64,000 nt of DNA from positions 1 to 64,000 of the forward strand of contig NZ_JALHMP010000007.1 in NCBI RefSeq assembly GCF_022843985.1. The letters are read 5' to 3'. Within the stretch, counting starts at the first letter, position 1. Each line of letters begins with the position of its first letter. Of this stretch, positions 27,925-49,352 are shown in pieces. Below the pieces are notes generated by a model, which saw only the letters and a list, made by a program, of their open reading frames with translations, ran no database searches and had not been told where the DNA came from. This DNA is from Phreatobacter sp. (GTDB lineage Bacteria > Pseudomonadota > Alphaproteobacteria > Rhizobiales > Phreatobacteraceae). The translations under genes were made by a program, and so were the position numbers.

Positions 27925-27951
27925 GTTTCATTGTGAGAAACATCGCTTCAT
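27925..27951. promoter_or_regulatory. Copy 1 of a three-half-site operator (upstream of acyl-CoA ligases)
   Basis: The bases read GTTTC, seven bases, GAAAC, three bases, GCTTCAT. They match the pattern RTTTC-N7-GAAAY-N3-RYTTCRT shared with 42176, 44903 and 49326. It ends 96 bases before the start of the first acyl-CoA ligase gene. GAAA/TTTC dyads are typical for IclR-family regulators such as KdgR; the IclR gene at 44057 is the candidate. Confidence 0.55.
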
Positions 27952-28047
27952 GAGGTGAGGGCAACCGGCGACAAGACCGGCGCGGACCAGGGCAGGCAGC
28001 ATGACGCGAAAGGCATGGCATCGTGGGGATGCGCGGGGATGCGCGCC

Positions 28048-29610
28048 ATGACGATGCAGCTCACCCTCGCCATCCACCGCGCCCGGCGGCTCTTTCCCGA
28101 CAAGACCGCCGTCGTCTTCGACGCGCGGCGCTGGACCTGGGATCAGTTCGCCGACCGGGTGGCGCGCCTCGCCGGCCTCTTGCAGAGTCTCGGGATCGGA
28201 CCCGGCGACCGGGTCGCCATGCTGTCGCATTCCTCCGACCGCTATCTCGAGTTTTTCTTCGCCGCCTTCTGGGCCGGCGGCATCGCCGTGCCGGTCTCGA
28301 CCCGCTATGCCGAGCCGGAGACCGCCTTCCTGATGCAGGATTGCGGCGCCAAGGTCCTGCTTGTCGGCGACGAGTTCACCGCCATGGCCGAGGCGCTGCG
28401 GCCGCAATGCCCGGATCTCCGCCATGTGGTCTTCGCCGGCGAGGGCGCCCTGCCCGCCGGCATGATCGGCTATGAGGCGGGGCTGGCGGCCCAGGCGCCG
28501 GTCGCCGATGCCCGCCGCAGCGGCGAGGACATCGCCGTGCTCTTCTATACGGGCGGGACGACGGGGCGCTCCAAGGGCGTCATGCTCACCCACATCAACT
28601 GCATGGCCAATTCGTTCGGCGGCATGGTGCACACCAGGCTCGGCAGCAGCCTCGTCGGCCTGCATGCAGGCCCGCTCTATCACGCCGCTGCCGGCTCGCG
28701 CGTCTTCACCAACACCCTTCTCGGCGCCACCCACGTGGTCATCCCGCGCTTCACGGTAAAGGGCGTGCTGGAGGCCATCCAGCACCACCGGATCACCTTC
28801 ACCTCCATGGTGCCGACCATGATGACGATGATCCTCAACGAGCCCGACCTCGATGCCTATGATCTCTCCTCGCTGGAGATGATCGGCTATGGCGGCGCGC
28901 CCATGCCGGTGGCGACGCTTGAGGCGCTGATGAAGCGGCTGCCGAAGGTGCGCTTCGCCCAGGCCTACGGGATGACGGAGCTGTCGCCGGCCTGCACCTA
29001 CCTAGAGCCCGACGACCACACGCTCGATCCCGCCAGGACCCACCGCCTCGCCTCCGGCGGGCGCGTCATCGTCGGCTGCGACCTGCGCGTCGTCGATTCG
29101 GACGATCGCGACGTGCCAGTGGGCACGATCGGCGAGATCATCGTCGCCGGAGCAACGGTGATGAAGGGCTACTGGAACCAGCCGGACATGACCGCGGAGG
29201 CCCTGCGCGGAGGTTACATGCACACCGGCGACGCTGGCTATCTCGACGCTGACGGCTATGTCTATGTCTCCGACCGGATCAAGGACATGATCGTCACCGG
29301 CGGCGAGAACGTCTATTCGATCGAGGTCGAGAATGCCGTCCTGACCCATCCCGCCATCCGCGAATGCGCGGTGATCGGCGTACCGCATGCCCTCTGGGGC
29401 GAGGCGGTGCATGCCGTCGTGACCTTCAAGGCCGGGCAGAGCGCCACGGCGGAGGCCATCATCGCCCACTGCAAGACGCGGATCGCCGGCTTCAAATGCC
29501 CGCAGACCATCGAGGTGCGCGAGGCCATGCCGCTGTCGCAGGCCAACAAGATCCTGAAGACGGAACTGAGGCGTCCCCATTGGGAGGGACGGGCGCGGGC
29601 AGTCAACTGA
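28048..29610 (+). CDS. Acyl-CoA ligase (AMP-binding, long-chain type)
   Basis: The 520-residue ANL-family enzyme has the phosphate-binding motif FYTGGTTGRSKGVM, the adenylate motif AYGMTEL, TGDAGYLDADGY with the ribose-binding Asp, and the hinge SDRIKDMIVTGGENVYS. The catalytic Lys is in LSQANKILKTELR. It activates a carboxylic acid with ATP and attaches CoA in the cytoplasm. The N-terminus is uncertain: ATG 28048 follows GGGGA at good spacing, while ATG 28039 and ATG 28018 are alternatives. The second ligase gene follows after 29 bases, so both are one operon. A copy of the shared 27-base operator motif lies upstream. Confidence 0.9.
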   Translation: MTMQLTLAIHRARRLFPDKTAVVFDARRWTWDQFADRVARLAGLLQSLGIGPGDRVAMLSHSSDRYLEFFFAAFWAGGIAVPVSTRYAEPETAFLMQDCGAKVLLVGDEFTAMAEALRPQCPDLRHVVFAGEGALPAGMIGYEAGLAAQAPVADARRSGEDIAVLFYTGGTTGRSKGVMLTHINCMANSFGGMVHTRLGSSLVGLHAGPLYHAAAGSRVFTNTLLGATHVVIPRFTVKGVLEAIQHHRITFTSMVPTMMTMILNEPDLDAYDLSSLEMIGYGGAPMPVATLEALMKRLPKVRFAQAYGMTELSPACTYLEPDDHTLDPARTHRLASGGRVIVGCDLRVVDSDDRDVPVGTIGEIIVAGATVMKGYWNQPDMTAEALRGGYMHTGDAGYLDADGYVYVSDRIKDMIVTGGENVYSIEVENAVLTHPAIRECAVIGVPHALWGEAVHAVVTFKAGQSATAEAIIAHCKTRIAGFKCPQTIEVREAMPLSQANKILKTELRRPHWEGRARAVN

Positions 29611-29639
29611 CGGTTCGGGCCGGCAAGGGAGTGGCGGCG

Positions 29640-31187
29640 ATGGCGGAAGGTGCGGACGGCTTGTCGCGCGGCATCGTCAGCGGCGGGCGCCAGCGCGATC
29701 CCGAAGCCGTCGAGGCGCGCGCCCGGCGGATCGCCGGCGGCCTCGACCGGCTCGGCGTCGGACCCGGCGACTGCGTCGCCATCCTGATGCGCAATGACAT
29801 CGCCTTTCTGGAGGCGACCTATGCCGCGGCCATGCTGGGGGCCTATGCGGTGCCGGTGAACTGGCACCTCAAGCCCGACGAGGTCCGCTACATCCTCGCG
29901 GATTGCGAGGCCAAGGTGCTGATCGGCCATGCGGACCTGCTGGCACCGATGGCCGGCGACCGGCCCGGCGGCCTCGCCGTCTTCACCGCGCCGGTGCCGC
30001 CCGAAGTGGCACGGCATTTCCCGTCGCCCGGGCCGTGCGAGCCCCCGGCAGGCAGCCGCGATCTCGATGCCTGGCTCGGCGGTGAAGCGCCCTTCGACGG
30101 GCCGGCCCGCCCGGCGCCGATGAGCATGATCTACACCTCCGGCACCACCGGAAAGCCGAAAGGGGTCAAGCGCCTGGCGCCGACGCCGGAGGAGGCGAAG
30201 GCGACGGAGGCGCTGCGCGCCCTCGTCTACGGCCTCAGGCCCGGCGTGCGCGCGCTGCTGCCGGGGCCGCTCTACCATTCCGCCCCCAATTCCTTCGGCA
30301 TCCGCGCGGGCCGGCTCGGCGGCGTGCTGGTGCTGATGCCACGCTTCGACGCCGAGGACATGCTGAGGCTGATCGAAACCCACCGCATCGACACGGTATT
30401 CATGGTGCCGACCATGTTCGTGCGGCTGCTGAAGCTGCCCGAAGAGGTCCGCCAGCGCTACGACCTGTCCTCGCTGCGCTTCGTCATCCATGCCGCGGCG
30501 CCCTGTCCGGCCGAGGTGAAGAGCGCGATGATCGCCTGGTGGGGCCCGGTGATCCACGAATTCTACGGCGGCACGGAGACCGGTCCCGTCACCTTCGCCA
30601 CGTCGGAGGACGCCCTGAAGAAACCGGGGACCGTCGGCCGGCTGTCGCCCGGGGCGGAGATCCGGGTGCTGGACGATGCCGGCAAGGCCCTGCCGCAGGG
30701 CGCCGTCGGCGAACTCTTCTGCCGCATCGCCGGCTATCCCGACTTCACCTATCACAAGGCGCCGGAGAAGCGCCGCGAGGTGGATCATTCCGGCTTCATC
30801 ACCTGCGGCGATGTCGGGTTCGTGGATGCGGACGGCTACGTGTTCCTCTGCGACCGCAAGCGCGACATGATCATCGCCGGCGGCGTCAACATCTATCCGG
30901 CGGAGATCGAGGCGGCGCTGCTGGCGCTGCCGCAGGTGCGCGACTGCGCCGTGTTCGGCATTCCCCATGCCGAATTCGGCGAGAGCATCATGGCGGTGAT
31001 CGCGCCGCAGCCAGGAGTGGAGATCGACCCGGAGGCTCTGAGGGCCGCGCTCGCCACCCGGATCGCCGACTACAAGCTGCCGCGGCACATCGAGTTTCGC
31101 GACGACCTGCCGCGGGAGGATTCGGGCAAGATCTTCAAGCGCCGGCTGCGCGACCCCTATTGGGCGGCGGCGGGCCGGACGATCTGA
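29640..31187 (+). CDS. Acyl-CoA ligase (AMP-binding), second copy
   Basis: The 515-residue protein belongs to the same ANL superfamily but is clearly different in sequence from its neighbour. Its motifs are IYTSGTTGKPKGVK, FYGGTETGPVT, CGDVGFVDADGYVF and DRKRDMIIAGGVNIYP, with the catalytic Lys in REDSGKIFKRRLRDPYW. It begins ATG 29640, 30 bases after the first ligase stop, with GGGAG upstream. Two unlike ligases in one operon suggest that two acids, or a parent acid and a degradation intermediate, need CoA activation. It is close to the bile-acid/fatty-acid CoA ligase group in general layout; exact substrate unknown. Confidence 0.9.
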   Translation: MAEGADGLSRGIVSGGRQRDPEAVEARARRIAGGLDRLGVGPGDCVAILMRNDIAFLEATYAAAMLGAYAVPVNWHLKPDEVRYILADCEAKVLIGHADLLAPMAGDRPGGLAVFTAPVPPEVARHFPSPGPCEPPAGSRDLDAWLGGEAPFDGPARPAPMSMIYTSGTTGKPKGVKRLAPTPEEAKATEALRALVYGLRPGVRALLPGPLYHSAPNSFGIRAGRLGGVLVLMPRFDAEDMLRLIETHRIDTVFMVPTMFVRLLKLPEEVRQRYDLSSLRFVIHAAAPCPAEVKSAMIAWWGPVIHEFYGGTETGPVTFATSEDALKKPGTVGRLSPGAEIRVLDDAGKALPQGAVGELFCRIAGYPDFTYHKAPEKRREVDHSGFITCGDVGFVDADGYVFLCDRKRDMIIAGGVNIYPAEIEAALLALPQVRDCAVFGIPHAEFGESIMAVIAPQPGVEIDPEALRAALATRIADYKLPRHIEFRDDLPREDSGKIFKRRLRDPYWAAAGRTI

Positions 31188-31205
31188 GGGCGAGGGTAGG
31201 CCGCC

Positions 31206-32105
31206 TCAGAACCCCAGCCTCGCGCGGACCTCTTCGGCGCTGATTCCGGCGGCGCGCAGGGCCCGGAAACCCTCGGCCTGATCGCTCTTCGACAGTTTCT
31301 TCCCGTCCGCACCGAGAACGAGCGGGTGATGGCGATAGAGCGGCGCCGGCAGCCCGAGGAGTTCCTGCAGCAGGCGGTGGACGGCGGTGGCCTCGAACAG
31401 GTCCGCACCCCGCACCACATGGGTCACTCCCTGCAGCGCGTCGTCGGCAACGACGGCGAGATGATAGCTGGTGCCGAGGTCCTTGCGCGCGAGGACGACG
31501 TCGCCCCAGCGCTGCGGATGGGCTGTGACGGTGCGCAGGGGAAGGCCCGCCACGTCAACCTCGGTCCAGGTCAGCGGCCGGTCGAGCCGCGCCAGCGCCG
31601 CGTCCATGGCAAGACGCAGGGCATGGGGCTCGCCCGCCGCGATCCGGGCCGCCGCTTCCTCCGCCGGCATCTCACGCCCCCGGCCGGCATAGAGCGGCGC
31701 GCCGTCGGGATCGGTCGCGACGGGCTTTCCCGTCGCCGCCGCGGCGGCAGCCGCCAGGGCCTTGACGTCGCCGCGGCTCTCGAAGGCGGGATAGACGAGG
31801 CCCATGGCGGCAAGCCTGGCGAGCAGGGCCCTGTGATCGGCGAGGTGGTCCGACTGGCGGCGATAGGGCGTCTCGAAGGCGAGGCCGAGCCAGGCAAGGT
31901 CGGCGATCATGGCCGCCTCGTGTTCCGGCCGGCAGCGCGCCCGGTCGATATCCTCGACGCGCAGCAGCAGCCGCCCGCCGAGGGCTGCCGCCATCCTCTC
32001 GTTCTCCAGCGCGCTACGGGCGTGGCCGAGATGGAGCAGACCGTTGGGGCTCGGCGCGAAGCGCAGGACCGGCTGGCGCGCGGGCGGGGGGTGGGCGACC
32101 GTCAT
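31206..32105 (-). CDS. gluQ: Glutamyl-Q tRNA(Asp) synthetase
   Basis: The 299-residue protein is a class I glutamyl-tRNA-synthetase-like catalytic core without an anticodon-binding domain. It has the HIGH variant HLGHA in APSNGLLHLGHA-like context and the KMSKS variant GKKLSKSD. GluQ-RS attaches glutamate to the queuosine base at position 34 of tRNA(Asp). The cysteines that bind zinc in the E. coli enzyme are absent here: YPAFESRG and LYAGRGRE occupy their places. It is divergent from the DNA glycosylase gene and starts at ATG 32105. Confidence 0.93.
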   Translation of the reverse strand: MTVAHPPPARQPVLRFAPSPNGLLHLGHARSALENERMAAALGGRLLLRVEDIDRARCRPEHEAAMIADLAWLGLAFETPYRRQSDHLADHRALLARLAAMGLVYPAFESRGDVKALAAAAAAATGKPVATDPDGAPLYAGRGREMPAEEAAARIAAGEPHALRLAMDAALARLDRPLTWTEVDVAGLPLRTVTAHPQRWGDVVLARKDLGTSYHLAVVADDALQGVTHVVRGADLFEATAVHRLLQELLGLPAPLYRHHPLVLGADGKKLSKSDQAEGFRALRAAGISAEEVRARLGF

Positions 32106-32143
32106 GGCGTCAGCCTATGGTCGAGGTGGGCACGGGGAGCAAG

Positions 32144-32800
32144 ATGGCCGAGGACCTCATCGCGACGGAGAACGACCTGAACGCACGGCTGGCGGCCCTA
32201 GCGGGCCGCTGCGCGGTCATGGCGCGCCTCCATTCCCGCCATGGTCAGCCGCCCCTGCGGCGGCGGCCGGCCGGCTTCGAAGGGCTGGTCCATGTCGTGG
32301 TATTCCAGCAGATCTCGATCGCGGCGGCAGCTGTCATCTGGGAGCGGACTGTCGCCGTCTTCGGCGCGATCACGCCGGAACGGCTGGCCGCGGCGAGCGA
32401 CGAGGACTTCCGCGCCGCCGGCCAGTCGAGGCCGAAGATCCGGACACTGCGATCCCTGGCCGCGGCGGTGCTGGACGGCACGCTGGGCCTCGACGCCCTG
32501 CCGGCAATGGAGGCCGAGGCCGCCCATGCCGCCCTGACACGGGTCAAGGGCATCGGGCCTTGGACCGCCGACGTCTATCTCCTCACCTGCCTCGGCCATG
32601 GCGATGCCTGGCCGGCCGGCGACATCGCCCTGCAGACGGCGGTACAGGATGCCGTGGGCCTCGCCGCGCGGCCGGATGCCCGGCAGATGATCGCCATCGC
32701 CGAGCGCTGGCGGCCGCACCGGGCGGTGGCGGCGCGGCTGCTCTGGGCGCATTATGCCGCCCTGAAGCAGCGGGCGGCCGTTCCCGCCACGACGGCGTGA
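32144..32800 (+). CDS. DNA-3-methyladenine glycosylase II-like (HhH-GPD)
   Basis: The 218-residue protein has the helix-hairpin-helix-GPD fold. The hairpin and catalytic loop run KGIGPWTADVYLLTCLG to GDIALQ; the Asp in the latter is the expected catalytic residue. It removes alkylated bases from DNA in base excision repair. It lacks the extra N-terminal domain of E. coli AlkA (282 residues), as most alphaproteobacterial forms do. I chose ATG 32144 because GGGGAGC lies upstream; ATG-like codons earlier overlap the divergent gluQ start. Confidence 0.9.
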   Translation: MAEDLIATENDLNARLAALAGRCAVMARLHSRHGQPPLRRRPAGFEGLVHVVVFQQISIAAAAVIWERTVAVFGAITPERLAAASDEDFRAAGQSRPKIRTLRSLAAAVLDGTLGLDALPAMEAEAAHAALTRVKGIGPWTADVYLLTCLGHGDAWPAGDIALQTAVQDAVGLAARPDARQMIAIAERWRPHRAVAARLLWAHYAALKQRAAVPATTA

Positions 32801-32861
32801 TCGCCGGTCCTTTGGGCTTCACAAGAGCGACACGATCCCCATAGTATCGCTCAGTGCCTGA

Positions 32862-32878
32862 ATTCGCGGCTCGCGAAT
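32862..32878. promoter_or_regulatory. Perfect palindrome upstream of the HNH nuclease gene
   Basis: ATTCGCG-GCT-CGCGAAT is a perfect 7+3+7 inverted repeat, ending 31 bases before the TTG start of the HNH gene. A second, looser dyad (GAGCGA 32825-32830 and TCGCTC 32847-32852) lies just upstream. They may be operator sites or a 5' untranslated hairpin. No T-run follows. Confidence 0.3.
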
Positions 32879-32909
32879 CGCCGAGCCGCCCGATCGCAAG
32901 GAGTTCATC

Positions 32910-33500: not shown

Positions 33501-33504
33501 GGCT

Positions 33505-34041: not shown

Positions 34042-34140
34042 GGCGCCGGTTCTAGCCGCTCACGACGTTCTGTCCAGTGGGAGTGCCCCGCGACATGGGT
34101 TTCCATTGACCCGGCCGGCCCCCTCGTTCATCACAACATC

Positions 34141-35020: not shown

Positions 35021-36127
35021 ATGCGCCCCCCGAAAGATCCCGCCCACCGCAAGCTCACCCGCCGCCGCCTTCTCGGCGTGCTCGCCGCCATCCCCGTGAT
35101 CGGCGGCGCGACCGGCGCCGCCGCCTATCGCAGCCAGCCCTACTATACCGGACCGGTGAGCGACCATTTCGACGGCACCCGCTTCTTCGATCCCCATGGC
35201 GTGCCGCCCAAGCCCTTCACCGAGCTGCTGCGCTGGCAGTTCGGCGGCGATGAGCGGGCCCGCTGGCCGGAGAGCTGGCCGCTCGATCGCACCGACGTGC
35301 CGCCGCCGCGGGTGGAGGGGGACGCGATCCGCCTCTCCTATGTCGGCCATGCGACGATCCTGATGCAGACGCGCGGGCTCAACATCCTGTTCGATCCGGT
35401 CTGGTCGGAGCGGGTCTCGCCGGTCTCCTTCGCCGGGCCGAAGCGGGTCAATGCCCCGGGCGTCGCCTTCGAGGCCCTGCCCAAGATCGACCTCGTCCTG
35501 GTCAGCCACGGCCATTACGACCATCTCGACGTGGAGACGCTCTCCCGTCTCCATGCGGTCCACCAGCCGCGGGTCATCACCCCCCTCGGTCAGGACGCCA
35601 TCATGAAGGCCTTCGACCCCGCGATCCGGGCGGAGGCGCATGACTGGGGCGACCGCGTCGCGATCGGCAACGACATGGCGGTGCATCTGGCACCGATGCG
35701 GCACTGGACGGCGCGCGGCCTGTTCGACCGCAACAAGGCGCTGTGGGCGGCCTTCATCGTCGAGGCACCGGGCGGCCTCGTCTATCACATCGGTGATACC
35801 GGCTATGGCGACGGACACCATTTCCGCGAGGCGAAACGTCGCTTCGGCGGCTTCCGCCTCGCCATCCTGCCGATCGGCGCCTACGAGCCGCGCTGGTTCA
35901 TGCGCGACCAGCACATGAACCCGGCCGAGGCCGTGCAGGTGATGATTGATTGCGGGGCGCGGCGTGCCCTCGCCCATCACTGGGGCACGGTCCAGCTGAC
36001 CAACGAGGCGATCGAGGAGCCGCGCCTGGCGCTGGGCGCCGCGCTGGCGGAACGGGGGATCGCGCCCGACCTGTTCCGCGCCATCCGCCCCGGCGAGGCC
36101 TGGGACCTGCCCGCCGCGGAAGCCTGA
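35021..36127 (+). CDS. MBL-fold metallo-hydrolase (NAPE-PLD/UlaG-like), Tat-type signal
   Basis: The 368-residue protein has a metallo-beta-lactamase fold (about residues 95-350). Its core is YVGHATILMQTRGLNILFDP, the metal motif HGHYDHLD, then MRHWTARG, HIGDTGYGDG, and ILPIGAYEPRWFM. These features match the phospholipase D-like NAPE-PLD group. The N-terminus has twin arginines in KLTRRRLLGVLAA before a hydrophobic stretch, so it may be exported by Tat or membrane-anchored. It starts 8 bases after the moaD stop, in the same direction. Substrate not determined. Confidence 0.85.
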   Translation: MRPPKDPAHRKLTRRRLLGVLAAIPVIGGATGAAAYRSQPYYTGPVSDHFDGTRFFDPHGVPPKPFTELLRWQFGGDERARWPESWPLDRTDVPPPRVEGDAIRLSYVGHATILMQTRGLNILFDPVWSERVSPVSFAGPKRVNAPGVAFEALPKIDLVLVSHGHYDHLDVETLSRLHAVHQPRVITPLGQDAIMKAFDPAIRAEAHDWGDRVAIGNDMAVHLAPMRHWTARGLFDRNKALWAAFIVEAPGGLVYHIGDTGYGDGHHFREAKRRFGGFRLAILPIGAYEPRWFMRDQHMNPAEAVQVMIDCGARRALAHHWGTVQLTNEAIEEPRLALGAALAERGIAPDLFRAIRPGEAWDLPAAEA

Positions 36128-40685: not shown

Positions 40686-41372
40686 ATGGCCATGATCCGC
40701 CTCCTGCGCCGTTTCGTGTTCGCTGCCGTCCTGCTGGCCCTGACGCCGCTGGTGCTGACGCTCCTCTATACGGTGGTGACGCCGGTCTCGACCCGCATGA
40801 TCTGGCGCCTTGTGACGCTGCAGGGCTATGAGCGCAGCGTCGTGCCGCTGGAGGCGGTGGCGCGGCCGCTGCCGGCGGTGCTCATCGCCTCGGAGGACGC
40901 CCGGTTCTGCCGCCACCGCGGCGTCGACTGGCGCGAACTCATGGCGGTGATCGAGGACGAGGACGGCCCCTCGCGCGGCGCCTCGACCCTGCCGATGCAG
41001 GTCGCCCGCAATCTGTTTCTCTGGCAGGGCGACACCGGGTTCACGGCGATCATCCGCAAGGGTCTGGAGATTCCGCTGGCGCTGATGATCGACCTCGTCT
41101 GGTCGAAACGGCGGATGATGGAGATTTACCTCAACATTGCGGAATGGGGCCCGGGCGGCGAGTTCGGCATCGAGGCCGGCGCCAGGCGCGCCTTCGGCAA
41201 GCCGGCATCGCGCCTGACCATGGGCGAGGCGGCGCTGCTGGTATCGATCCTGCCGAACCCGATCCGCCGCGACGCACGGGCGCCGTCGACCGGCGTCCGG
41301 CGCAAGGCGGCCATCATCTCCCGCCGGGCGGGGGCCGCCGACACGGCCTGCCTCGGACTGGCGGCGTCATGA
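40686..41372 (+). CDS. mtgA: Monofunctional peptidoglycan transglycosylase
   Basis: The 228-residue protein has one N-terminal membrane anchor and a glycosyltransferase-51 domain. Conserved blocks are LIASEDARFCRHRGVDW (catalytic Glu), GASTLPMQVARNLFL, KGLEIPLALMIDLVWSKRRM and EIYLNIAEWGPG. It polymerises lipid II into glycan strands but lacks a transpeptidase domain. The start is ATG 40686 or ATG 40692. Its stop overlaps the start of the AprI/Inh gene (ATGA). Confidence 0.95.
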   Translation: MAMIRLLRRFVFAAVLLALTPLVLTLLYTVVTPVSTRMIWRLVTLQGYERSVVPLEAVARPLPAVLIASEDARFCRHRGVDWRELMAVIEDEDGPSRGASTLPMQVARNLFLWQGDTGFTAIIRKGLEIPLALMIDLVWSKRRMMEIYLNIAEWGPGGEFGIEAGARRAFGKPASRLTMGEAALLVSILPNPIRRDARAPSTGVRRKAAIISRRAGAADTACLGLAAS

Positions 41373-42136
41373 CCGCATCCATCCGGTGGACGCGCCCGGA
41401 AAATCACGCTTCTAATCCCGACATGCTGCAAGCGCTTGCTCTCCTGGTAATCCTCTTAGCCCCGGCCGAGGCTGCCCGCGCTCAGGCGCCGGCGGCCCAG
41501 CCCGATGGCGCGCTGATCGAAAGGGCGGTGGGCACCTGGGAACTCTCCAATCCGGCGGGCAGCCGCAAATGCGCCGTCACCCTGCGGGCGGAACGGGCGG
41601 GGACCGCCAGGGCCCTGACCTTTGGCGAGGGTTGCGCCGCGACCTTTCCGGCAGTGACTGCGATCGTCGCCTGGTTGGTGGGGCCGACCGGATCGATCCG
41701 CTGGATCGACAGGGCCGGCCAGCCGGCCTTCGATTTCGAGGAGACCGAGGTCGGCATCTTCGAAGCGCTGCGCCCTGGCGATCCCAATGTCTATTTCCTG
41801 ACGAGCCTCGCCCTTGCCGGCAAGGCACTGCCGACCGCCGACGAGATCGCCGGGGCCTGGAGCCTCGGCCAGCCTTCGGGGCGCAGCCTCTGCGCGCTGC
41901 TTCTGAAGCAGGAGCTGGCGGCCGGTGCGGGAGCGCTGGAACAGCGGTTCGCGGTGGAGATCGCCGCCGGCTGCGAGCGCTCCATCGCCGCCCTCGGCCT
42001 CTCCCACTGGCGGCTTGAGCGCGAGCTGCTGGTCTTCGGCGGCCGGACGGGCACGCTGTCCTTCAGGCGGGAGGAGGACGGCCGCTGGACCAAGACGCCG
42101 CCCGATAATCGCCCCCTGGTCCTGTCCCGGCCCTGA
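41369..42136 (+). CDS. Secreted protein with two AprI/Inh-like domains
   Basis: The 255-residue protein has a signal-like segment (LQALALLVILLAPAEAARAQ, about 20-39) and two repeats. Each is about 100 residues, with WELSNPAGSRKCAVTL in the first and WSLGQPSGRSLCALLL in the second. The Trp-x-L, Cys and later GC patterns match the AprI/Inh metalloprotease inhibitor family, which usually has one domain of about 100 residues. It would inhibit a periplasmic or secreted zinc protease. No protease gene is adjacent. The start is uncertain (ATG 41369 overlapping mtgA, or ATG 41423). Confidence 0.75.
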   Translation: MTASIRWTRPENHASNPDMLQALALLVILLAPAEAARAQAPAAQPDGALIERAVGTWELSNPAGSRKCAVTLRAERAGTARALTFGEGCAATFPAVTAIVAWLVGPTGSIRWIDRAGQPAFDFEETEVGIFEALRPGDPNVYFLTSLALAGKALPTADEIAGAWSLGQPSGRSLCALLLKQELAAGAGALEQRFAVEIAAGCERSIAALGLSHWRLERELLVFGGRTGTLSFRREEDGRWTKTPPDNRPLVLSRP

Positions 42137-42175: not shown

Positions 42176-42202
42176 ATTTCGTCCACTGAAATGACGCTTC
42201 GT
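42176..42202. promoter_or_regulatory. Copy 2 of the three-half-site operator (upstream of enoyl-CoA hydratase)
   Basis: The bases read ATTTC, seven bases, GAAAT, three bases, GCTTCGT, which fits RTTTC-N7-GAAAY-N3-RYTTCRT. It ends 42 bases before the hydratase start and could overlap the promoter. This copy deviates most from the others at the outer bases. Confidence 0.5.
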
Positions 42203-42244
42203 CCGCGGCATGGGCCCGGACCGCCGCGACCAGAAGGACTGACC

Positions 42245-43036
42245 ATGACTGCGACCACCGTCGAACCCTCGGTGCGTGTCGAACGGGAGGGGGCCGTCGC
42301 GACCCTGGTGCTCAACGAGCCGAAGTCGATGAACGCCATGTCCGCCGGGATCAAGGCCGGGATCGAGGAGCATCTGCCGGCGCTGCTCGCCGATCCCGAG
42401 GTCCGCGCCATCGTCATCACCGGCACCGGCCGCGCCTTCTGCGCTGGCGGCGACATCCGGTCCATGGACGACCGCGGGCCGCTCGTGGTCAAGGCCCGGA
42501 TGACACGGACCTACCGGTGGCTGGTGCCGCTGCTCACCGCCGACAAGCCGATCATCTGCGCGGTGAACGGGGCGGCGGCGGGCGCCGGCCTGTCACTGGC
42601 CCTGACCGCCGATCTGATCGTCGCCTCGCGCGACGCCCGCTTCAAGGCGGGCTTCCCCGGCCTCGGCGCGGCGGCGGATCTCGGCCTCGCCTATACGCTG
42701 CCGCGGGCCGTCGGCTACCAGCGGGCGAGCGACATACTGCTGACCAACCGCGAGGTTTCCGCCGAGGAGGCCCATGCCATGGGGCTGGTCGCACGGCTGA
42801 CAGCGCCGGAGGCGCTGATGGCGACGGCGATGGAACTCGCCGAGACCCTCGCCCGCGGCCCCACGGTGTCGCTCGCCCTGACCAAGCGGCTGATGCGCCG
42901 CGCCTATGAGCTGCCGATCGAGGGGTTCCTCGAGGCCGAGGCGCTGTCGCAGGTCGTGGCCTTCGGCAGCGCCGATTTCGACGAGGGCGTTGCGGCCTTC
43001 AAGGGCAAGCGCAAGCCGGACTTCAAGGGCCGCTGA
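42245..43036 (+). CDS. Enoyl-CoA hydratase/isomerase family protein
   Basis: The 263-residue crotonase-fold protein has the oxyanion-hole segments FCAGGDIRSMDD and NGAAAGAGLSLAL. Its position for the first catalytic Glu (E144 in rat hydratase) reads FPGLGAAADLGL, with no Glu there, so a simple hydratase reaction is not certain; isomerase, lyase or thioesterase chemistry is possible. The start ATG 42245 has AAGGA upstream. It is followed after 20 bases by the dienoyl-CoA reductase-like SDR, so both form an operon. Confidence 0.88.
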   Translation: MTATTVEPSVRVEREGAVATLVLNEPKSMNAMSAGIKAGIEEHLPALLADPEVRAIVITGTGRAFCAGGDIRSMDDRGPLVVKARMTRTYRWLVPLLTADKPIICAVNGAAAGAGLSLALTADLIVASRDARFKAGFPGLGAAADLGLAYTLPRAVGYQRASDILLTNREVSAEEAHAMGLVARLTAPEALMATAMELAETLARGPTVSLALTKRLMRRAYELPIEGFLEAEALSQVVAFGSADFDEGVAAFKGKRKPDFKGR

Positions 43037-43056: not shown

Positions 43057-43944
43057 ATGCAGACGATGTTCAAGGACGGCCTGCTCGCAGGCAAGCGCAT
43101 TCTCGTCACCGGCGGCGGCACCGGCCTCGGCCGGGAGATGGCGGAGGATTATCTCCGGCTCGGCGCGACGGTGCATATCTGCGGGCGGCGCAAGGGCGTG
43201 CTCGACGAGACCGCGGCGGAGCTGATGGACCGCCATGGGGGCAAGGTCATCACCCATGCGGTCGATATCCGCGTCGCCCAGGCGGTGGAGGAGATGATCG
43301 AGGAGATCTTCACGGCCGGGCCGCTGACCGGCCTCGTCAACAATGCGGCCGGCAATTTCATCAGCCCGACCAAGGACCTGTCGCCGCGGGGCTTCGACGC
43401 CATCGCCGGCATCGTCTTCCACGGCTCGTTCTACGTGACCCTGGCCTGCGGCAAACGCTGGATCACCGGCGGCCACAAGGCCTCCGTCATCTCCATCCTC
43501 ACCACCTGGATTTGGAACGGCGGACCCTTCACCGTGCCCTCCGCCATGTCGAAGGCCGGCATCGCCGTCATGACCCAGTCGCTGGCCGCTGAGTGGGGGC
43601 GCTACGGCATCCGCCTCAACGCCATCGCGCCAGGCCCCTTCCCCACCAAGGGTGCCTGGGAGCGGCTCAATCCGGGCCTTGCCGCCGAGCAGGACAAGGG
43701 CCGCGCCGGCAGCCCCATGGGCCGCAACGGCGAGATGCAGGAGCTGAAGAACCTCGCGACCTTCCTGATGGCCGATGGCTGCGAGTACCTCACCGGCCAG
43801 ACCATCGCCATCGACGGCGCGCGCTACAACGCCACCGGCGGCAATTTCTATGACCTGTCGAAGCTCTCGGACGGCGAATGGCAGGCCATGAGCGAGATGA
43901 TCCGCGCAGCCAACGAGAAGGACCGGGCCAGCCGCACGGCTTGA
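43057..43944 (+). CDS. SDR oxidoreductase, 2,4-dienoyl-CoA reductase-like
   Basis: The 295-residue SDR has TGGGTGLG (nucleotide binding) and NNAAGNF. The active-site stretch FTVPSAMSKAG has Ser four residues before Lys instead of the usual Tyr, exactly as in mitochondrial DECR1. The following LAAEWGRYGIRLNAIAPGP is also close to DECR. Such enzymes reduce 2,4-dienoyl-CoA from unsaturated fatty acids with NADPH. It lies directly behind the crotonase-fold gene and 112 bases before the IclR regulator gene. Confidence 0.88.
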   Translation: MQTMFKDGLLAGKRILVTGGGTGLGREMAEDYLRLGATVHICGRRKGVLDETAAELMDRHGGKVITHAVDIRVAQAVEEMIEEIFTAGPLTGLVNNAAGNFISPTKDLSPRGFDAIAGIVFHGSFYVTLACGKRWITGGHKASVISILTTWIWNGGPFTVPSAMSKAGIAVMTQSLAAEWGRYGIRLNAIAPGPFPTKGAWERLNPGLAAEQDKGRAGSPMGRNGEMQELKNLATFLMADGCEYLTGQTIAIDGARYNATGGNFYDLSKLSDGEWQAMSEMIRAANEKDRASRTA

Positions 43945-43959
43945 GCTCCACGGTCCCGG

Positions 43960-43979
43960 CCCGCGACCCGTGTCGCGGG
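43960..43979 (+). terminator. Hairpin after the dienoyl-CoA reductase-like gene
   Basis: CCCGCGAC-CCGT-GTCGCGGG is a perfect 8-bp stem, 16 bases past the stop codon. No T-run follows, so it may be an RNA-stabilising or Rho-assisted end. The IclR gene begins 77 bases further on. Confidence 0.4.
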
Positions 43980-44056
43980 TCATGGGCCGGTCCACTTATG
44001 CTAGGCTCGACGAATCCCGCGGGGCCACTGCGCCGGGGGATGATCAGGAACCCGTC

Positions 44057-44878
44057 ATGCCGTCGTTCGAACCCGTCATCGCGCTTTCGCGCGGCCTCGA
44101 AATCCTCCGCGTCCTGAACGCCGAGCGGCGCTCGACGGTGGGTTCACTGCACAAGGCGACGGGTCTGAACAAGGCGACCATCGTGCGCATGCTCGAGACG
44201 CTGGAGCATGAAGGCTATGTGATGCGGGATGCGGAGCGGACCGAATATCTGCCGACCGGCCGCTGCCTGCTGCTCGCCCAGGGCTATGACCAGCACCTGT
44301 GGATCGGCGGCGTCGCCGAGCCCATCATGCACGAGTTCCGCAAGCAGATCGGCTGGCCCTCGGACATCGCCATTCTCGACCGCGACGCGATGATCGTCGC
44401 CCAGACGACCCGCGAGCCGGGATCGATGCTGTTCTCGCGCCGTCCGGGCTTCCGCTTTCCGCTGCTCGCCACATCCATGGGCCGGGCCTATCTCGCCTTC
44501 TGCCCGGAGGAGCAGCAGCAGCGGATCATCGCCCTGCTCGCCGCCATCCCAGGCGGATCGACCGAACTCGCCCGCCAGCCGAAAAAGCTCGCCTCCCTGC
44601 TCGCCGAGGTGCGCGAGCGGGGCTATGCGCTGATGGACGAGGCCTATAGCCAGGACGTCTTCGACGGCCGGGTCTGGGCCATGGGGGTGCCGGTGCGCGA
44701 CGGCGACGAGGTCTTCGCCAGCATCAACATCATGATGCTGCACGGCGCCATCTCGGTGGAGGATGCCGTCAGGAACTTCCTTGGTCCCCTGCAGGATACG
44801 GCCGCGCTGATCGCCGGAGCGCTCACCGACAGGTTCCGCGCCACGCTCTGGGCGCCGGGCGACACCAAGGGCGACTAG
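44057..44878 (+). CDS. IclR family transcriptional regulator
   Basis: The 273-residue protein has the IclR winged helix-turn-helix (residues 10-70: VIALSRGLEILRVLN, HKATGLNKATIVRMLETLE). The ligand-binding domain follows (about 85-260, with GRAYLAF and YALMDEAYSQDVFDGRVWA). IclR proteins sense small acids and activate or repress catabolic operons. I chose ATG 44057, behind AGGA. Four copies of a three-half-site motif lie before surrounding catabolic genes (27925, 42176, 44903, 49326), which makes this the likely regulator of all of them. Confidence 0.92.
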   Translation: MPSFEPVIALSRGLEILRVLNAERRSTVGSLHKATGLNKATIVRMLETLEHEGYVMRDAERTEYLPTGRCLLLAQGYDQHLWIGGVAEPIMHEFRKQIGWPSDIAILDRDAMIVAQTTREPGSMLFSRRPGFRFPLLATSMGRAYLAFCPEEQQQRIIALLAAIPGGSTELARQPKKLASLLAEVRERGYALMDEAYSQDVFDGRVWAMGVPVRDGDEVFASINIMMLHGAISVEDAVRNFLGPLQDTAALIAGALTDRFRATLWAPGDTKGD

Positions 44879-44902
44879 CCGAAGGAGGGATGCATCAGTC
44901 CG

Positions 44903-44929
44903 GTTTCAGGGGATGAAACGGGGTTTCAT
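44903..44929. promoter_or_regulatory. Copy 3 of the three-half-site operator (upstream of Bug gene 1)
   Basis: The bases read GTTTC, seven bases, GAAAC, GGG, GTTTCAT. The inner part ATGAAAC-GGG-GTTTCAT (44913-44929) is a perfect palindrome. TTGACG, a good -35 hexamer, begins 5 bases after it (44934-44939). The IclR gene ends 24 bases upstream, and the Bug gene starts 144 bases downstream. Confidence 0.6.
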
Positions 44930-45072
44930 ACATTTGACGCATCGGGGGCCGCGTGAGAGCATTCCGGCGGGTCGCGAGCACCGCGCCGTAACGTTCGCGC
45001 CTTGCCACCAGAGAAACGGCGGCGCGGGAGGATCGACCCCCACGAGAGAGATCGCGTCCAGAGGAAACGACC

Positions 45073-46062
45073 ATGCCCCACCTGCTATCGCGCCGCGGCC
45101 TCATCGCCGCCGGCGCCGTCGCCACATTGGCTGCACCCCGTATCGGCCAGGCCCAGGCTTCGGCCTGGCCCAGCAAGCCGGTCAGGATCCTCTGCGCCTT
45201 CCCGGCGGGCGGCATCACCGACGCCTATGCCCGGGCCTATGGCGACTACATCCAGCAGAAGAGCGGCCAAACCGTCGTGGTCGAGAACCGCCTCGGTGCC
45301 GGCGGCGGCATCGCGGCCCAGGCCCTGAAGGGTGCGCCGGACGATGGCCACACGCTGATGATCACCATCTCCTCGACCATGCTTGGCAACCGGGTCATGT
45401 TCAAGAACCTGCCCTATGATCCGGACAAGGATTTCGCCTTCCTCGCCATGATGTCGACGGGGCACCTGCCGCTGGTGGCGCACAGGGCGACCGGTGCGAA
45501 ATCCATCGCCGAGTTCGTCGACTTCGCGCGGAAGAACCGCACCAGCTTCGGCTCCTATGCCGCCGGCTCCTTCGCCCATATTGTCGGCGCCGAACTGAAC
45601 CGCCGGTTCAACCTCGACATGACCATCGTCCATTACCGGGGCGAGGCGCCGATGTGGCAGGACCTGCTCACCGGCAGCAGCCAGGTGGCGATGGGCAGCT
45701 ACACGGCAGCGAAGGGCACGCTCGACAGCGGCGCGGGGACGGCCATAGCGGTGCCGACATCGCGACGGATGAAGACGCTGCCGGAGGTTGCGACCTATGC
45801 CGAACAGGGGCTGACCGACAAGGTCTTCGACCTGGTGAGCTGGGCCGGCTTCTTCGGCAAGGCCTCCATGCCGGGCGAGATGGTGCAGCAAATTTCCGAT
45901 CTCATGGTCGAGGCCGGAAAGACCGAGCGCATCCAGCGGCTCACCGCCACGTTCGGGATCGATGATACCGCCCAGGATCATCGCACCTTCCGCCACATCT
46001 ACGACACCCAGGGACCGATCTGGCTCGACCATGTCAACCGGCTCGGCATTACGCCGAGCTGA
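45073..46062 (+). CDS. Tripartite tricarboxylate transporter substrate-binding protein (Bug/TctC), copy 1
   Basis: The 329-residue periplasmic protein has a twin-arginine-like signal (LSRRGLIAAGAVATLAA, cut near AQA). Its Bug-family features are RILCAFPAGGITDAYAR near the start and VVVENRLGAGGGIAAQAL. Such proteins bind carboxylates or aromatic acids with high affinity. GAGGAAACGACC precedes the ATG at 45073. No TctA/TctB membrane partners are nearby, so it may share a distant one or act in sensing. A close paralog follows at 46179. The shared operator motif lies 143 bases upstream. Confidence 0.93.
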   Translation: MPHLLSRRGLIAAGAVATLAAPRIGQAQASAWPSKPVRILCAFPAGGITDAYARAYGDYIQQKSGQTVVVENRLGAGGGIAAQALKGAPDDGHTLMITISSTMLGNRVMFKNLPYDPDKDFAFLAMMSTGHLPLVAHRATGAKSIAEFVDFARKNRTSFGSYAAGSFAHIVGAELNRRFNLDMTIVHYRGEAPMWQDLLTGSSQVAMGSYTAAKGTLDSGAGTAIAVPTSRRMKTLPEVATYAEQGLTDKVFDLVSWAGFFGKASMPGEMVQQISDLMVEAGKTERIQRLTATFGIDDTAQDHRTFRHIYDTQGPIWLDHVNRLGITPS

Positions 46063-46178
46063 CGGGGCCTCCCAGGGGGCTGACAATCGGTCGCAGGCCG
46101 CGGGACGGTCCCTGCGGCTAGGCTTTCGTCGCAAACATACGGGACGCAGAAGCCCGTTCATCGATTGAGGAAACAACC

Positions 46179-47168
46179 ATGTCTTTTTCAATGACCCGCC
46201 GGGGCCTCGTCGCCACCGGTCTTCTTGCTCCCCTCGCGACCCCGCTGATTGCCCGTGCGCAGGGCGCGGCTTGGCCCAACAAGCAGCTGCGCATCATCTG
46301 CGCCTTCCCGGCCGGTGGCATCACCGATGCCTTCGCCCGCGCCTATGGCGAGTATATCGGCACCAAGAGCGGCCAGACCGTCGTGGTCGAGAACCGCCCG
46401 GGGGCCGGCGGCGGCATTGCTGCCCAGGCGCTGAAGACCGCGCCGGATGACGGCCACACCCTGATGATCACCATTTCGACGACGCTGTTCGGCAACCGCG
46501 TCATGTTCAAGAACCTGGCCTATGACCCGGACAAGGACTTCTCCCTGCTGGCGCTGCTGCCCACCGGCAGCCTGCCGCTGGTCGCCGCCAAGGCGACGGG
46601 CGCGTCGAATATCGCGCAATTCGTCGAGCATGCCCGCAAGAACCGGATAAGCTTCGGTTCCTATGCCGCCGGCTCGATGGCCCATATCGTCTGCAATGCG
46701 CTGAACCAGCAGTTCAACCTCGACATGACCGTGGTCAATTATCGGGGTGAGGCGCCGATGTGGCAGGATGTGCTCACCGGCAACAGCCAGATCGCGCTCG
46801 GCAGCTTCACCGCCGCCAAGGCGGTTCTCGACGCCAATGCCGGGACCGCCATCGCCATCCCCTCGACCCGGCGGATGAGGGCGCTGCCAAACACCCCGAC
46901 CTTTGCCGAGCAGGGGCTCGATAATCCGGTCTTCCGGCTGCTCAGTTGGGTCGGTTTCCTCGGCCAGTCCTCCATGCCGCAGCCTCTGGTCGAGACCGTG
47001 TCGGCGCTGATGCTGGAAGCCGCGCAGACCGAGCGGATCCGCAAGCTGAACGAGACCTTCGGCATCGAGGACCCTGTCCTCGGCCATGCCGACTTCAAGC
47101 GGATCTACGCTTCGGAAGGGCCCATCTGGATCGAGAACGTGCGCAAGCTCGGCCTGACGCCGGCCTGA
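46179..47168 (+). CDS. Tripartite tricarboxylate transporter substrate-binding protein (Bug/TctC), copy 2
   Basis: This 329-residue protein is a clear tandem paralog of the preceding one: same length, same ribosome site (GAGGAAACAACC), and long identical stretches such as CAFPAGGITDA, GAGGGIAAQALK, and APDDGHTLMITIS. It also has a twin-arginine-like signal (MTRRGLVATGLLAP). The gap between the genes is 116 bases and holds no operator copy, so the two may be co-transcribed. Differences cluster in the ligand-facing half, so the two may bind different acids. No membrane components are present. Confidence 0.93.
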   Translation: MSFSMTRRGLVATGLLAPLATPLIARAQGAAWPNKQLRIICAFPAGGITDAFARAYGEYIGTKSGQTVVVENRPGAGGGIAAQALKTAPDDGHTLMITISTTLFGNRVMFKNLAYDPDKDFSLLALLPTGSLPLVAAKATGASNIAQFVEHARKNRISFGSYAAGSMAHIVCNALNQQFNLDMTVVNYRGEAPMWQDVLTGNSQIALGSFTAAKAVLDANAGTAIAIPSTRRMRALPNTPTFAEQGLDNPVFRLLSWVGFLGQSSMPQPLVETVSALMLEAAQTERIRKLNETFGIEDPVLGHADFKRIYASEGPIWIENVRKLGLTPA

Positions 47169-47180
47169 CGCCGGCCTGAC
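47151..47180. repeat. 11-base tandem repeat spanning the Bug copy 2 stop codon
   Basis: GGCCTGACGCC occurs twice in tandem (47151-47161, 47162-47172) and a third time in part (47173-47180). The stop codon TGA at 47166-47168 lies inside the second unit. The unit length is not a multiple of three, so its copy number would alter the C-terminus of the protein only slightly because each copy contains another possible stop. Confidence 0.6.
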
Positions 47181-47200
47181 GGCGCTGCGGCCCGCCGGGG

Positions 47201-48058
47201 TCAGGCGACCTCGGCGCGGCCGTTTGTCAGCACGACGATGTCGCGCTCGACCACCCGGGCGCGGAAGGAGACGACCCCGCCGTCGCGCCAGATCTCGGTG
47301 CGGATGGTCTCGCCGGGCAGGACCGGCGCCGAGAACCGGACATCGAGACGCCGGAGCCGGGCCGGATCATTGCCGCAGCAGGCCTTGAGGATGGCGCGGC
47401 CAGCCACCGCATAGGTGCACAGGCCGTGCAGGATCGGCCGCTCGAAGCCGGCGCCGCGGGCGATGTCGGGATCGGCATGGAGCGGGTTGTCGTCCCCCGA
47501 GAGACGGTAGATCAGCGCCGCCTGCGGCAGGGTCTTCAGATCGACGGCCTCGTCGGCCACCCTGTCGGGGAGCGGGTGCGGCTCGGGCGTCGGCCCCGAG
47601 GGACCGCCGAAGCCGCCCTCGCCGCGGATGAAGGTGGTGGAGGTGAGCGTCGCGAGGAGGTCGCCCGAAGCCTTGTCGATCACGTCGCGCGTGGAGAAGA
47701 GCAGGGCGCCCTTGCCGGCGCCCTTGTCGACGATCTCGGTAACACGGGTGCGGCCGATCACCGTGCCGGTGGCAGGCAGCGGCCGGTGGATGACGACGCC
47801 CTGTTCGCCGTGCAGGACCTTGCGCCAGTCGACGCCGGTGGCCGGATTTTTCAGCCAGAAGCCGGGATAGCCGAGCACGACGGCCATGGTCGGCAGGGCC
47901 TTGAGGCCGTCCTCGTAGACGAAGGGCAGCTCCGTGCGGTCCATGGGGTCGGCGCCGCAGCCCACCCCCAGGGCGTAGAGGATCGTGTCCTTCGCCTGAT
48001 AGCGGTGCTCGAGATCGGGGAAGTGCCAGTTCTTCAGCGTGTCGTAGTCGATGGGCAT
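47201..48058 (-). CDS. MaoC-like hydratase (hydratase-2 type)
   Basis: The 285-residue protein has two hot-dog domains. The N-terminal half resembles the first half of eukaryotic hydratase 2 (with YALGVGCGADPMDRTEL). The C-terminal half carries the hydratase-2 motif YRLSGDDNPLHADPDIARGAGF (Asp, His) and LHGLCTYAVAGRAIL. Such enzymes hydrate trans-2-enoyl-CoA to (R)-3-hydroxyacyl-CoA. It begins ATG 48058 with GAGGAT upstream, 59 bases after the acyl-CoA dehydrogenase gene on the same strand. It pairs with the SDR at 49428, together matching the two halves of the eukaryotic MFE-2 protein. Confidence 0.92.
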   Translation of the reverse strand: MPIDYDTLKNWHFPDLEHRYQAKDTILYALGVGCGADPMDRTELPFVYEDGLKALPTMAVVLGYPGFWLKNPATGVDWRKVLHGEQGVVIHRPLPATGTVIGRTRVTEIVDKGAGKGALLFSTRDVIDKASGDLLATLTSTTFIRGEGGFGGPSGPTPEPHPLPDRVADEAVDLKTLPQAALIYRLSGDDNPLHADPDIARGAGFERPILHGLCTYAVAGRAILKACCGNDPARLRRLDVRFSAPVLPGETIRTEIWRDGGVVSFRARVVERDIVVLTNGRAEVA

Positions 48059-48117
48059 GGGCGTATCCTCGAAACCAATCGCAGGTCTTCCGCCTGCATC
48101 AGGAAAGCGGGTCCTTT

Positions 48118-49257
48118 TCAAAGAGACCGCGCGACGATCTCCTTCATGATCTCGGTGGTGCCGGCATAGATGCGCTGGATGCGGCTGTCGGCATAGGCAC
48201 GGGCGATCGGGTATTCCCACATGAAGCCGTAGCCGCCATGGAGCTGCAGGCAGGTGTCAACGACGCGGCCCTGCAGTTCGGTCAGCCACCATTTGGCCAT
48301 GGCCGCGGTGGTGACGTCGAGGTCGCCGCGCAGGAATTTGGCGATGCAGTCGTCGAGGAAGACGCGGGCGACCGTGACCTCCGTTTTCACCTCTGCCAGC
48401 TTGAAGCGGGTGTTCTGGAAATCGGCGATGGACTTGCCGAAGGCCTTGCGCTCGCGGGTGTAGTCGACGGTCCATTTCAGCGCCGATTCCATCACCGCGA
48501 CGGCGGAGATGGCGACCAGCAGGCGCTCGCGCGGCAGCTCGGTCATCATATAGGCGAAGCCGCGCCCCTCCTCGCCGATAATGTTGGTCAGCGGGACGCG
48601 GACATTGTCGAAGAAGAGCTCGGAGGTGTCCTGCGCCTTCAGCCCGATCTTCTCGAGATTGCGGCCACGCTTGAACCCCTCGCGGTCGGCCTCGACCAGA
48701 ATGAGGCTGACTCCCTTGGCGCCCTCCTTGGGGTCCGTCTTGGCGGCGACGAGGATGAAATCGGCAAGCTGGCCGTTGGTGATGAAGGTCTTCTGGCCGT
48801 TGACGACATAGTGGTTGCCGTCGCGGATCGCCGTGGTGCGGATGGCCTGGACGTCTGAGCCCGCCCCCGGCTCGGTCATGGCCAGCGCGCCGATGGCCTC
48901 GCCCGAGGCCATCTTCGGCAGCCAGTGGCGTTTCAGGTCCTCGGAGGCATTGTTGAGGATATAGGGGGCGACGATGTCGGAATGCAGCCGGAAGCCCGGG
49001 CCGGTGAAGACATGGCCCATCATCTCCTCGATCATGATGGCGCTGGTGAGGAAATCCGCCCCGCCGCCGCCATAGGCCTCGGGAATGTTGGTGAGCAGCA
49101 TGCCGGCCGCGCCGGCCTTTCGCCAGGCCTCGCGGTCGACGACGCCTTCCTTCTCCCAGCGCGCGTGGTGGGGGGCGATCTCCTCGGCGATGAAGCGGCG
49201 GCAGGCGTCGCGGAAGAGGTGATGCTCTTCCCTGTAATAGGCGGCGGTGGCGGTCAT
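48118..49257 (-). CDS. Acyl-CoA dehydrogenase
   Basis: The 379-residue FAD enzyme has the family signatures ALAMTEPGAGSDVQAIRTTA and LQLHGGYGFMWEYPIARAYAD. The usual C-terminal catalytic Glu position reads YAGTTEIM, without Glu. Glu244 in LPRERLLVAIS aligns by eye with the base of isovaleryl- and long-chain-type dehydrogenases, so this is probably of that group. It introduces the first double bond into an acyl-CoA and passes electrons to ETF. Divergent from the SDR at 49428, with the shared operator between them. Confidence 0.92.
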   Translation of the reverse strand: MTATAAYYREEHHLFRDACRRFIAEEIAPHHARWEKEGVVDREAWRKAGAAGMLLTNIPEAYGGGGADFLTSAIMIEEMMGHVFTGPGFRLHSDIVAPYILNNASEDLKRHWLPKMASGEAIGALAMTEPGAGSDVQAIRTTAIRDGNHYVVNGQKTFITNGQLADFILVAAKTDPKEGAKGVSLILVEADREGFKRGRNLEKIGLKAQDTSELFFDNVRVPLTNIIGEEGRGFAYMMTELPRERLLVAISAVAVMESALKWTVDYTRERKAFGKSIADFQNTRFKLAEVKTEVTVARVFLDDCIAKFLRGDLDVTTAAMAKWWLTELQGRVVDTCLQLHGGYGFMWEYPIARAYADSRIQRIYAGTTEIMKEIVARSL

Positions 49258-49325
49258 GGCGCGCGTCTCCTGATCCGGGCGCGGCGACTCGAAGCCCCGC
49301 GGCGAGCCTCTATCCTAAGACAGGC

Positions 49326-49352
49326 GTTTCGGCGAATGAAACGGGATTTCGT
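49326..49352. promoter_or_regulatory. Copy 4 of the three-half-site operator (divergent promoter region)
   Basis: The bases read GTTTC, seven bases, GAAAC, GGG, ATTTCGT. As in copy 3, TTGACG follows after 4 bases (49357-49362). It stands 69 bases from the dehydrogenase start and 75 bases from the SDR start, well placed to control both directions. Confidence 0.6.

Follow-up and report, generated by a model that had tools for sequence, protein, structure and literature searches.

Suvorova and Gelfand (2021; PMC8222616) describe regulators of the IclR family as recognizing two kinds of motif that use the same boxes in differing arrangement. Three alternating boxes are reported there for 32 orthologous groups with 199 transcription factors, PcaU is cited as a case in which binding depends on the third box, and binding by tetramers is noted alongside a proposed alternative dimerization that is said to need experimental validation. 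We analyzed a 64,000-nucleotide stretch of Phreatobacter sp. (contig NZ_JALHMP010000007.1, positions 1 to 64,000; hereafter, the window) that carries four copies of a 27-base, three-box operator, RTTTC-N7-GAAAY-N3-RYTTCRT, and an IclR-family gene at 44057-44878. The encoded regulator likely binds these operators and co-controls one pathway for the catabolism of CoA thioesters, a reading to which we assign a probability of roughly 0.87.

At all four sites, a group 1 dyad (7-8 bases between boxes) and a group 2 dyad of the published scheme are both present and share the middle box. Boxes 1-2 resemble the group 1 consensus (GKTYCRYW3-4RYGRAMC) and boxes 2-3 that of group 2 (TGRAACAN1-2TGTTYCA), and the box spacings, 7 and 3 bases, are in the range that the two consensuses allow. 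The first dyad differs in that it lacks an A/T-rich centre and does not keep the RY-W3-RY of group 1. A palindrome with an extra external half-site is also shared with the operators of PcaU, PobR and HmgR as given in PMC8222616, but their boxes are of the GTTCG, GTCCG or TTACG type rather than RTTTC, and their pathways are those of aromatic acids. A prior sequence-only reading of the window had remarked that two adjacent dyads would suit binding by a dimer of dimers, which agrees with these published motifs. The three-box architecture is already known, and the regulon itself is apparently undescribed. The part of the main text considered here, to which the membership lists of the 32 groups do not belong, mentions neither the gene set nor the genus, and a literature search on Phreatobacter IclR and on IclR-TctC/acyl-CoA regulons, which did not extend to the supplementary group lists of the 2021 paper, returned no account of it. 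The present loci would provide a function-linked regulon for an uncharacterized IclR orthologue of Phreatobacter, Bradyrhizobium, Thalassobaculum and others.

Operator copies and the IclR-family regulator

All four copies noted from the sequence alone were recovered on the forward strand with 0 mismatches, each in a gene gap upstream of acyl-CoA or uptake genes (Table 1). A scan of the own genome (4,332,633 bases in 53 contigs) returned these four as the only exact matches, the reversed pattern used as a control had none, and none occurred in 100 dinucleotide shuffles of the window. The earlier chance estimate of 0.0002 per window had assumed equal base frequencies; with the base composition of the window and both strands counted, the expectation is lower still, at 0.000009 for the window and 0.0006 for the genome. 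The core dyad RTTTC-N7-GAAAY is found in the window only in the four copies, and the GAAAY-N3-RYTTC dyad, which takes the form TGAAAC-GGG-GTTTCA in copy 3, is present in all four with one further, isolated occurrence at 35833. At copy 1 the pattern fits the minus strand too, with 1 mismatch, which makes this copy a four-box palindrome. When up to 2 mismatches were allowed, the own genome yielded four additional matches, namely this mirror of copy 1 and sites on contigs C5, C16 and C21 (G, C and L numbers are our handles for genomes, contigs and loci). The element TTGAC follows copies 3 and 4 at a distance of four bases, as had been reported. A chance origin of the sites was rejected, given that shuffles of the window and reversed controls in the genome and the genus had no exact match, and that with 2 mismatches allowed the matches in the genus far outnumbered those of the control (117 vs 10).

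The regulator gene lies between copies 2 and 3, and its start at ATG 44057 was confirmed. Its product carries the IclR helix-turn-helix and C-terminal domains (Table 1). The best curated matches are three PRK09834 models (181, 171 and 166 bits), none of which reaches its cut-off (269, 251 and 299, respectively), and the TIGR02431 model for PcaR/PcaU/PobR likewise stays below its own (123.6 bits vs 284.75). PRK09834 corresponds to MhpR, and unlike for regulators of that kind, no hydroxyphenylpropionate-type genes are among those annotated in the window. Thirteen distinct PDB sequences match the regulator at E 0.001 or better, several of them labelled IclR, the closest being 2ia2, a putative transcriptional regulator (7.2e-17). 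Among the 835 plasmid records that match the regulator, none has at least 60% identity. Since the regulator gene is part of the operon behind copy 2, its product would also control its own expression.

Conservation of the sites and of the regulator

The genus set comprised 12 genomes of the family, all of one genus and with the own genome (G000) included. Exact sites were detected in 10 of them, 27 in total, and the reversed control had 0 matches across the 12 genomes. All 27 are upstream of the same five units, i.e., SDR/ACAD (short-chain dehydrogenase/reductase and acyl-CoA dehydrogenase; n = 9), acyl-CoA ligase (n = 7), enoyl-CoA hydratase (ECH; n = 6), TctC (n = 4) and IclR (n = 1). The phylogenetic footprinting that had been suggested for the window thus shows the pattern to be kept before the same genes in relatives. 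An orthologue of the regulator with at least 78% identity is present in the same 10 genomes (78-96% in the nine relatives), and the best matches in the other two, G006 and G011, are at 42 and 46%. These two genomes, which have the divergent ACAD/SDR operon without the orthologue and also lack the site, serve as a natural negative control.

Allowing 0-1 mismatch, the site was detected in 10 of 10 orthologous SDR promoters, 9 of 9 ligase promoters (in L041 solely in a mirrored three-box reading), 8 of 10 orthologous ECH promoters and 8 of 10 orthologous TctC promoters. The outer left (fourth) box of copy 1 was found in six of the eight ligase promoters tabulated. As to the stretches compared, those upstream of SDR end 3 bases before the likely ATG in the window; the first ligase is present in L050 and L057 (98 and 96% identity), and the L057 stretch runs 27 bases into the gene, whose start is at 3603, which shifts the distance and leaves the site unaffected; and G004 has no ligase stretch, due to a short contig, and no match to the HMG-CoA-synthase-like protein (HMGS). 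Gene order is altered in G001, G005 and G008. There the ligase genes adjoin the thiolase operon (L041, L048 and L052), which supports the tie between the ligase unit at 28 kb and the rest that the sequence-only reading had proposed across ten kilobases of other genes. The IclR gene of these genomes stands apart from the gene related to 2,4-dienoyl-CoA reductase (DECR) and has a site to itself, at 0-1 mismatch.

The regulon would also take in a fifth operon, situated beyond the window, judging from its site and that site's conservation. The site (G000:C5:65436-65462, or L126 5436-5462) has 2 mismatches and is 70 bp before a pair of ACAD genes. The first ACAD of the pair has a match in 10 of the 12 genus genomes at E 1e-80, eight of them with at least 78% identity, and in seven of these eight, the own genome included, a site with 1-2 mismatches is 39-70 bp before the match. 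Its orientation is constant and the upstream neighbour differs, being one gene context in G000 and G007 and another in the other five.

That the four sites reflect neutrally inherited or chance likeness without function is very improbable in our judgment. The pattern was defined post hoc and the sites within the genus share ancestry, which is what such an explanation would build on; it is opposed by the empty shuffles and reversed controls, by boxes kept at the TctC promoters while their spacers turn over (mean pairwise identity 0.67 vs 0.34), by sites retained through gene rearrangement, and by the site before the unlinked ACAD operon with its differing upstream neighbour.

Beyond the close set, alignment of the regulator led to 43 loci, of which six at 84-96% identity were excluded; the remaining 37 include L098, a G006 contig. 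A site with up to 2 mismatches lies no more than 400 bp from the IclR gene at 17 of the 20 loci with IclR identity of at least 57% and at 0 of the 17 below 57%, and the reversed control gave 0 of 37. Twelve of the 17 site-bearing loci are from Bradyrhizobium, so the loci are not independent. Thalassobaculum fulvum (Rhodospirillales, as opposed to Hyphomicrobiales for Phreatobacter) has sites with 1-2 mismatches before ECH, IclR, ACAD and SDR genes. The pattern RTTTC-N7-GAAAY-N3-RTTTY was scanned for in 11 of these genomes, 10 of which yielded a total of 14 matches, with 1 in the control. The exact pattern searched order-wide had nine matches in 7 of 385 genomes outside the genus (reversed control, three in all 397), and only one of the nine loci, L068 (G113), matches proteins of the window, with a 45% IclR and a 37% ECH beside the site.

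A different protein, e.g., an IclR paralogue encoded elsewhere in the genome, might bind these operators instead. The own genome does hold five further, weaker IclR-like matches, and in relatives some paralogues are directly preceded by three-box-like sites with 1-2 mismatches (G006:C77:17724; G011:C1:1549036, 4566441 and 5065444). We nevertheless regard a paralogue as an unlikely binder, as the exact sites follow the orthologue of the 44057 gene (10/10 vs 0/2) though all 12 genus genomes hold other IclR-like matches, and as the sites flank this orthologue's gene in other genera. Conserved sites whose presence tracks the orthologue thus support the earlier proposal of a single IclR circuit, with the 44057 regulator as the probable binder.

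Several observations weigh against this reading or its reach. The ECH promoters of G005 and G008 (L047 and L051), at 3 mismatches, keep boxes 2-3 only. At up to 3 mismatches, no TctC site is present in G003 and G009 (L044 and L053), and the 11 kb read from G001 contain no fifth site. Spacers are nearly as conserved as boxes at the ligase (0.86 vs 0.87) and SDR (0.80 vs 0.95) promoters, and across the four promoters the box mask comes 7th, 1st, 9th and 2nd in conservation among 193 positions; conservation alone therefore does not delimit the site. With a weak contrast at ECH promoters (box vs spacer, 0.85 vs 0.77) and a clear one at TctC only, box-versus-flank conservation was dropped as sole evidence. 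The two half-sites of the core dyad, compared by their outermost letters, show no covariation (Fisher p = 1.0, 38 distinct sequences), and covariation is thus not used as support. Outside the genus, at 3 mismatches, 18 of 20 close and 2 of 17 distant loci have a site, with 1 of 37 in the reversed control. Three loci (L090, L093 and L096) have no site within 2 mismatches and 400 bp of IclR; the sites of L090 and L096 lie before MaoC, and before an ACAD/SDR pair. Six Bradyrhizobium genomes have seven sites, six of them at IclR-TctC, from which the regulon there seems small and the link to enzyme genes not general. Finally, TTGAC follows the site in 0 of 8 ECH and 0 of 8 ligase promoters, so a single mode for all sites is not established.

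Proposed co-control and its sign

We propose that one dimer would occupy RTTTC-N7-GAAAY and hold a second dimer on the adjacent GAAAY-N3-RYTTC, such that a tetramer or dimer of dimers would cover about 27-37 bp, with four boxes at the ligase promoter. The genes under joint control would take up a substrate acid via TctC proteins, activate it by two acyl-CoA ligases, and oxidize and hydrate the CoA ester (ACAD, MaoC, ECH, DECR-like and SDR proteins), with the unlinked ACAD pair in addition. The pathway would also include thiolytic or aldol-type cleavage by an HMGS-OB fusion protein and a thiolase.

At the TctC and SDR promoters, we favour activation, by an acid or CoA ester derived from the substrate. 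There TTGAC is found 3-6 bases past the site in 8 of 8 TctC and 8 of 10 SDR promoters with a site, and the regulator would thus sit just upstream of a -35-like element. The regulator could instead be a pure repressor in the style of KdgR or E. coli IclR, released by the substrate or its CoA ester, and within the proposed regulon this form takes a substantial minority share of our confidence. Copy 2 is close to the ECH start, and without TTGAC at the ECH promoters the site there may overlap the core promoter or lie beyond it; boxes 2-3 also resemble the palindrome of KdgR. The placement 3-6 bases before TTGAC in 16 of 18 TctC and SDR promoters is activator-like, however, and the best curated models, PRK09834 and TIGR02431 (both below cut-off), have MhpR, PcaU and PobR as their best known members, which are activators. 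Activation at the TctC and SDR promoters accordingly stays the preferred sign.

G006 and G011, the two genomes without the orthologue, keep the divergent ACAD/SDR-HMGS-thiolase operon (60-83% identity). Their ACAD/SDR gaps have no site of the original pattern within 4 mismatches (a 4-mismatch match in G006 is inside the ACAD frame), and instead carry ATTCC-N7-GGAAT-N3-TTTCC, in which the three-box spacing is kept and the box is changed (Table 1). In G006, the only two other exact matches of this form flank an IclR paralogue (C77:97225-97863); no other was detected in G011 and none in the own genome, and the control was 0 in the three genomes. The changed box suggests a switch of regulator, for one operon in two related genomes. 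More tentatively, and with rather less than even confidence, a single regulator may act on one set of operons through modular operators, the outer boxes of which are gained, lost or inverted to leave two, three or four boxes in either orientation, and the TTTC to TTCC switch in G006 and G011 may record a change of operator specificity that came after regulator replacement. Naturally occurring operators with two, three and four boxes, together with the changed box in sister genomes, offer a test of alternative IclR dimerization.

Genes of the putative regulon and other three-box-like sites

The enzyme set, as assigned from protein families, would fit activation of an acid and its beta-oxidation-like breakdown as a CoA ester. 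With an MFE-2-like hydratase, a PRK07791-like SDR and an SCP2-like thiolase in the set, the side chain of the acid may be branched or cyclic. The set to be tested jointly for substrate is thereby named: the ligases, the ACADs, the HMGS-OB fusion with the thiolase, and the TctC proteins. The start of the SDR gene was placed at an in-frame ATG (49428) that is consistent with relatives, most of which align from residue 18-20.

Table 1 Operators and genes of the putative regulon in the window, and changed-box sites in two relatives (ORF, open reading frame).
Feature	Position	Strand	Evidence
Operator copy 1, four-box palindrome preceding the two ligase genes	27915..27951	+	exact 27925-27951; mirror 27915-27941 on -; 96 bp to ligase ATG 28048
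Operator copy 2, upstream of the ECH-DECR-IclR operon	42176..42202	+	exact match; 42 bp to ECH ATG 42245
Operator copy 3, upstream of two TctC genes	44903..44929	+	exact match; TTGAC four bases on; 143 bp to TctC ATG 45073
Operator copy 4, ACAD/SDR divergent promoter	49326..49352	+	exact match; between ACAD start 49257 and SDR start (probably ATG 49428, in the frame of ORF 49371)
AMP-binding acyl-CoA ligase (FadD-like), first after copy 1	28048..29610	+	ORF 27955-29610: PF00501 296.3 bits; NF004837 511.8, cut-off 476
Second AMP-binding acyl-CoA synthetase	ORF 29364..31187, true start probably near 29616	+	NF009071 PRK12406 832.6 bits, cut-off 701 (29616-31187)
Enoyl-CoA hydratase/isomerase family (ECH)	42245..43036	+	PF00378 185.3 bits for ORF 42191-43036
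SDR related to 2,4-dienoyl-CoA reductase (DECR-like)	43057..43944	+	NF005811 227.2 bits, below cut-off 318
IclR-family regulator, presumed binder of the sites	44057..44878	+	PF09339 46.5 bits (cut-off 22); PF01614 63.8 bits (cut-off 24)
TctC/Bug-type solute-binding protein 1	45073..46062	+	PF03401 125.7 bits
TctC/Bug-type solute-binding protein 2	46179..47168	+	PF03401 120.2 bits
MaoC/MFE-2-type hydratase, downstream of ACAD	47201..48220	-	PF01575 94 bits; PF22622 84.8 bits
Acyl-CoA dehydrogenase (ACAD), divergent from SDR across copy 4	48118..49257	-	PF00441 153 bits
SDR, hydroxyacyl-CoA dehydrogenase-like, PRK07791-related	49428..50348	+	NF005861 267 bits, below cut-off 373 (ORF 49371-50348)
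HMG-CoA-synthase-like (HMGS) fused to ChsH2-type zinc ribbon and OB domain	50432..51892	+	PF08541, PF12172, PF01796; NF003274 175.2 bits, below cut-off 244
PRK06157-type thiolase (SCP2-like by label)	51896..53101	+	NF004810 696.5 bits, cut-off 403
Changed-box site	G006:C37:118554-118578 (L127, gap near 12550)		exact form ATTCC-N7-GGAAT-N3-TTTCC
Changed-box site	G011:C1:677323-677347 (L128)		exact form ATTCC-N7-GGAAT-N3-TTTCC

The fusion of HMGS with zinc ribbon and OB domain directly precedes the thiolase gene (50432-53101), an arrangement reminiscent of the archaeal thiolase-DUF35-HMGS complex. In two reports on proteobacterial Sal/Shy steroid side-chain enzymes (PMC12329534, PMC11321319), a thiolase-like enzyme likewise has a DUF35-containing partner, there a MaoC hydratase, whereas here the OB domain is fused to the HMGS-like protein and MaoC stands alone. 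A steroid substrate would be putative at most.

The genes at 31.2-42.1 kb, between the ligase and ECH units, have no evident link to the pathway. They encode a class I tRNA-synthetase relative, a CDP-alcohol phosphatidyltransferase, a metallo-beta-lactamase-fold protein, a DUF4175 protein, a PLP enzyme, a DUF429 protein, a transglycosylase and an Inh-domain protein; two further ORFs have no match in Pfam. The Inh-domain protein (41144-42136), with this protease-inhibitor domain at its C-terminus, is encoded just upstream of the ECH operon.

Across the 12 genus genomes, 117 matches with up to 2 mismatches were found vs 10 in the control, not all of which are counted as members of the regulon. 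Two further sets of three-box-like sites were observed among the relatives. Set A, with the site RTTTCGGCTANNGGAATGANATTTC (L172-L177; e.g., G002:C1:2343016), occurs in 6 of the 12 genomes, the own genome not among them; in G002 it precedes a Liv-type ABC operon, and in G005 the genes behind it are different ones of catabolic type. Set B (L156-L163) comprises eight stretches from six genus genomes, with sites at 1-2 mismatches; in the four stretches typed by Pfam (L156, L158, L160 and L162), the neighbours are TctC and aldo/keto reductase genes or a gene for a CoA-transferase. Both sets may be operators of IclR paralogues.

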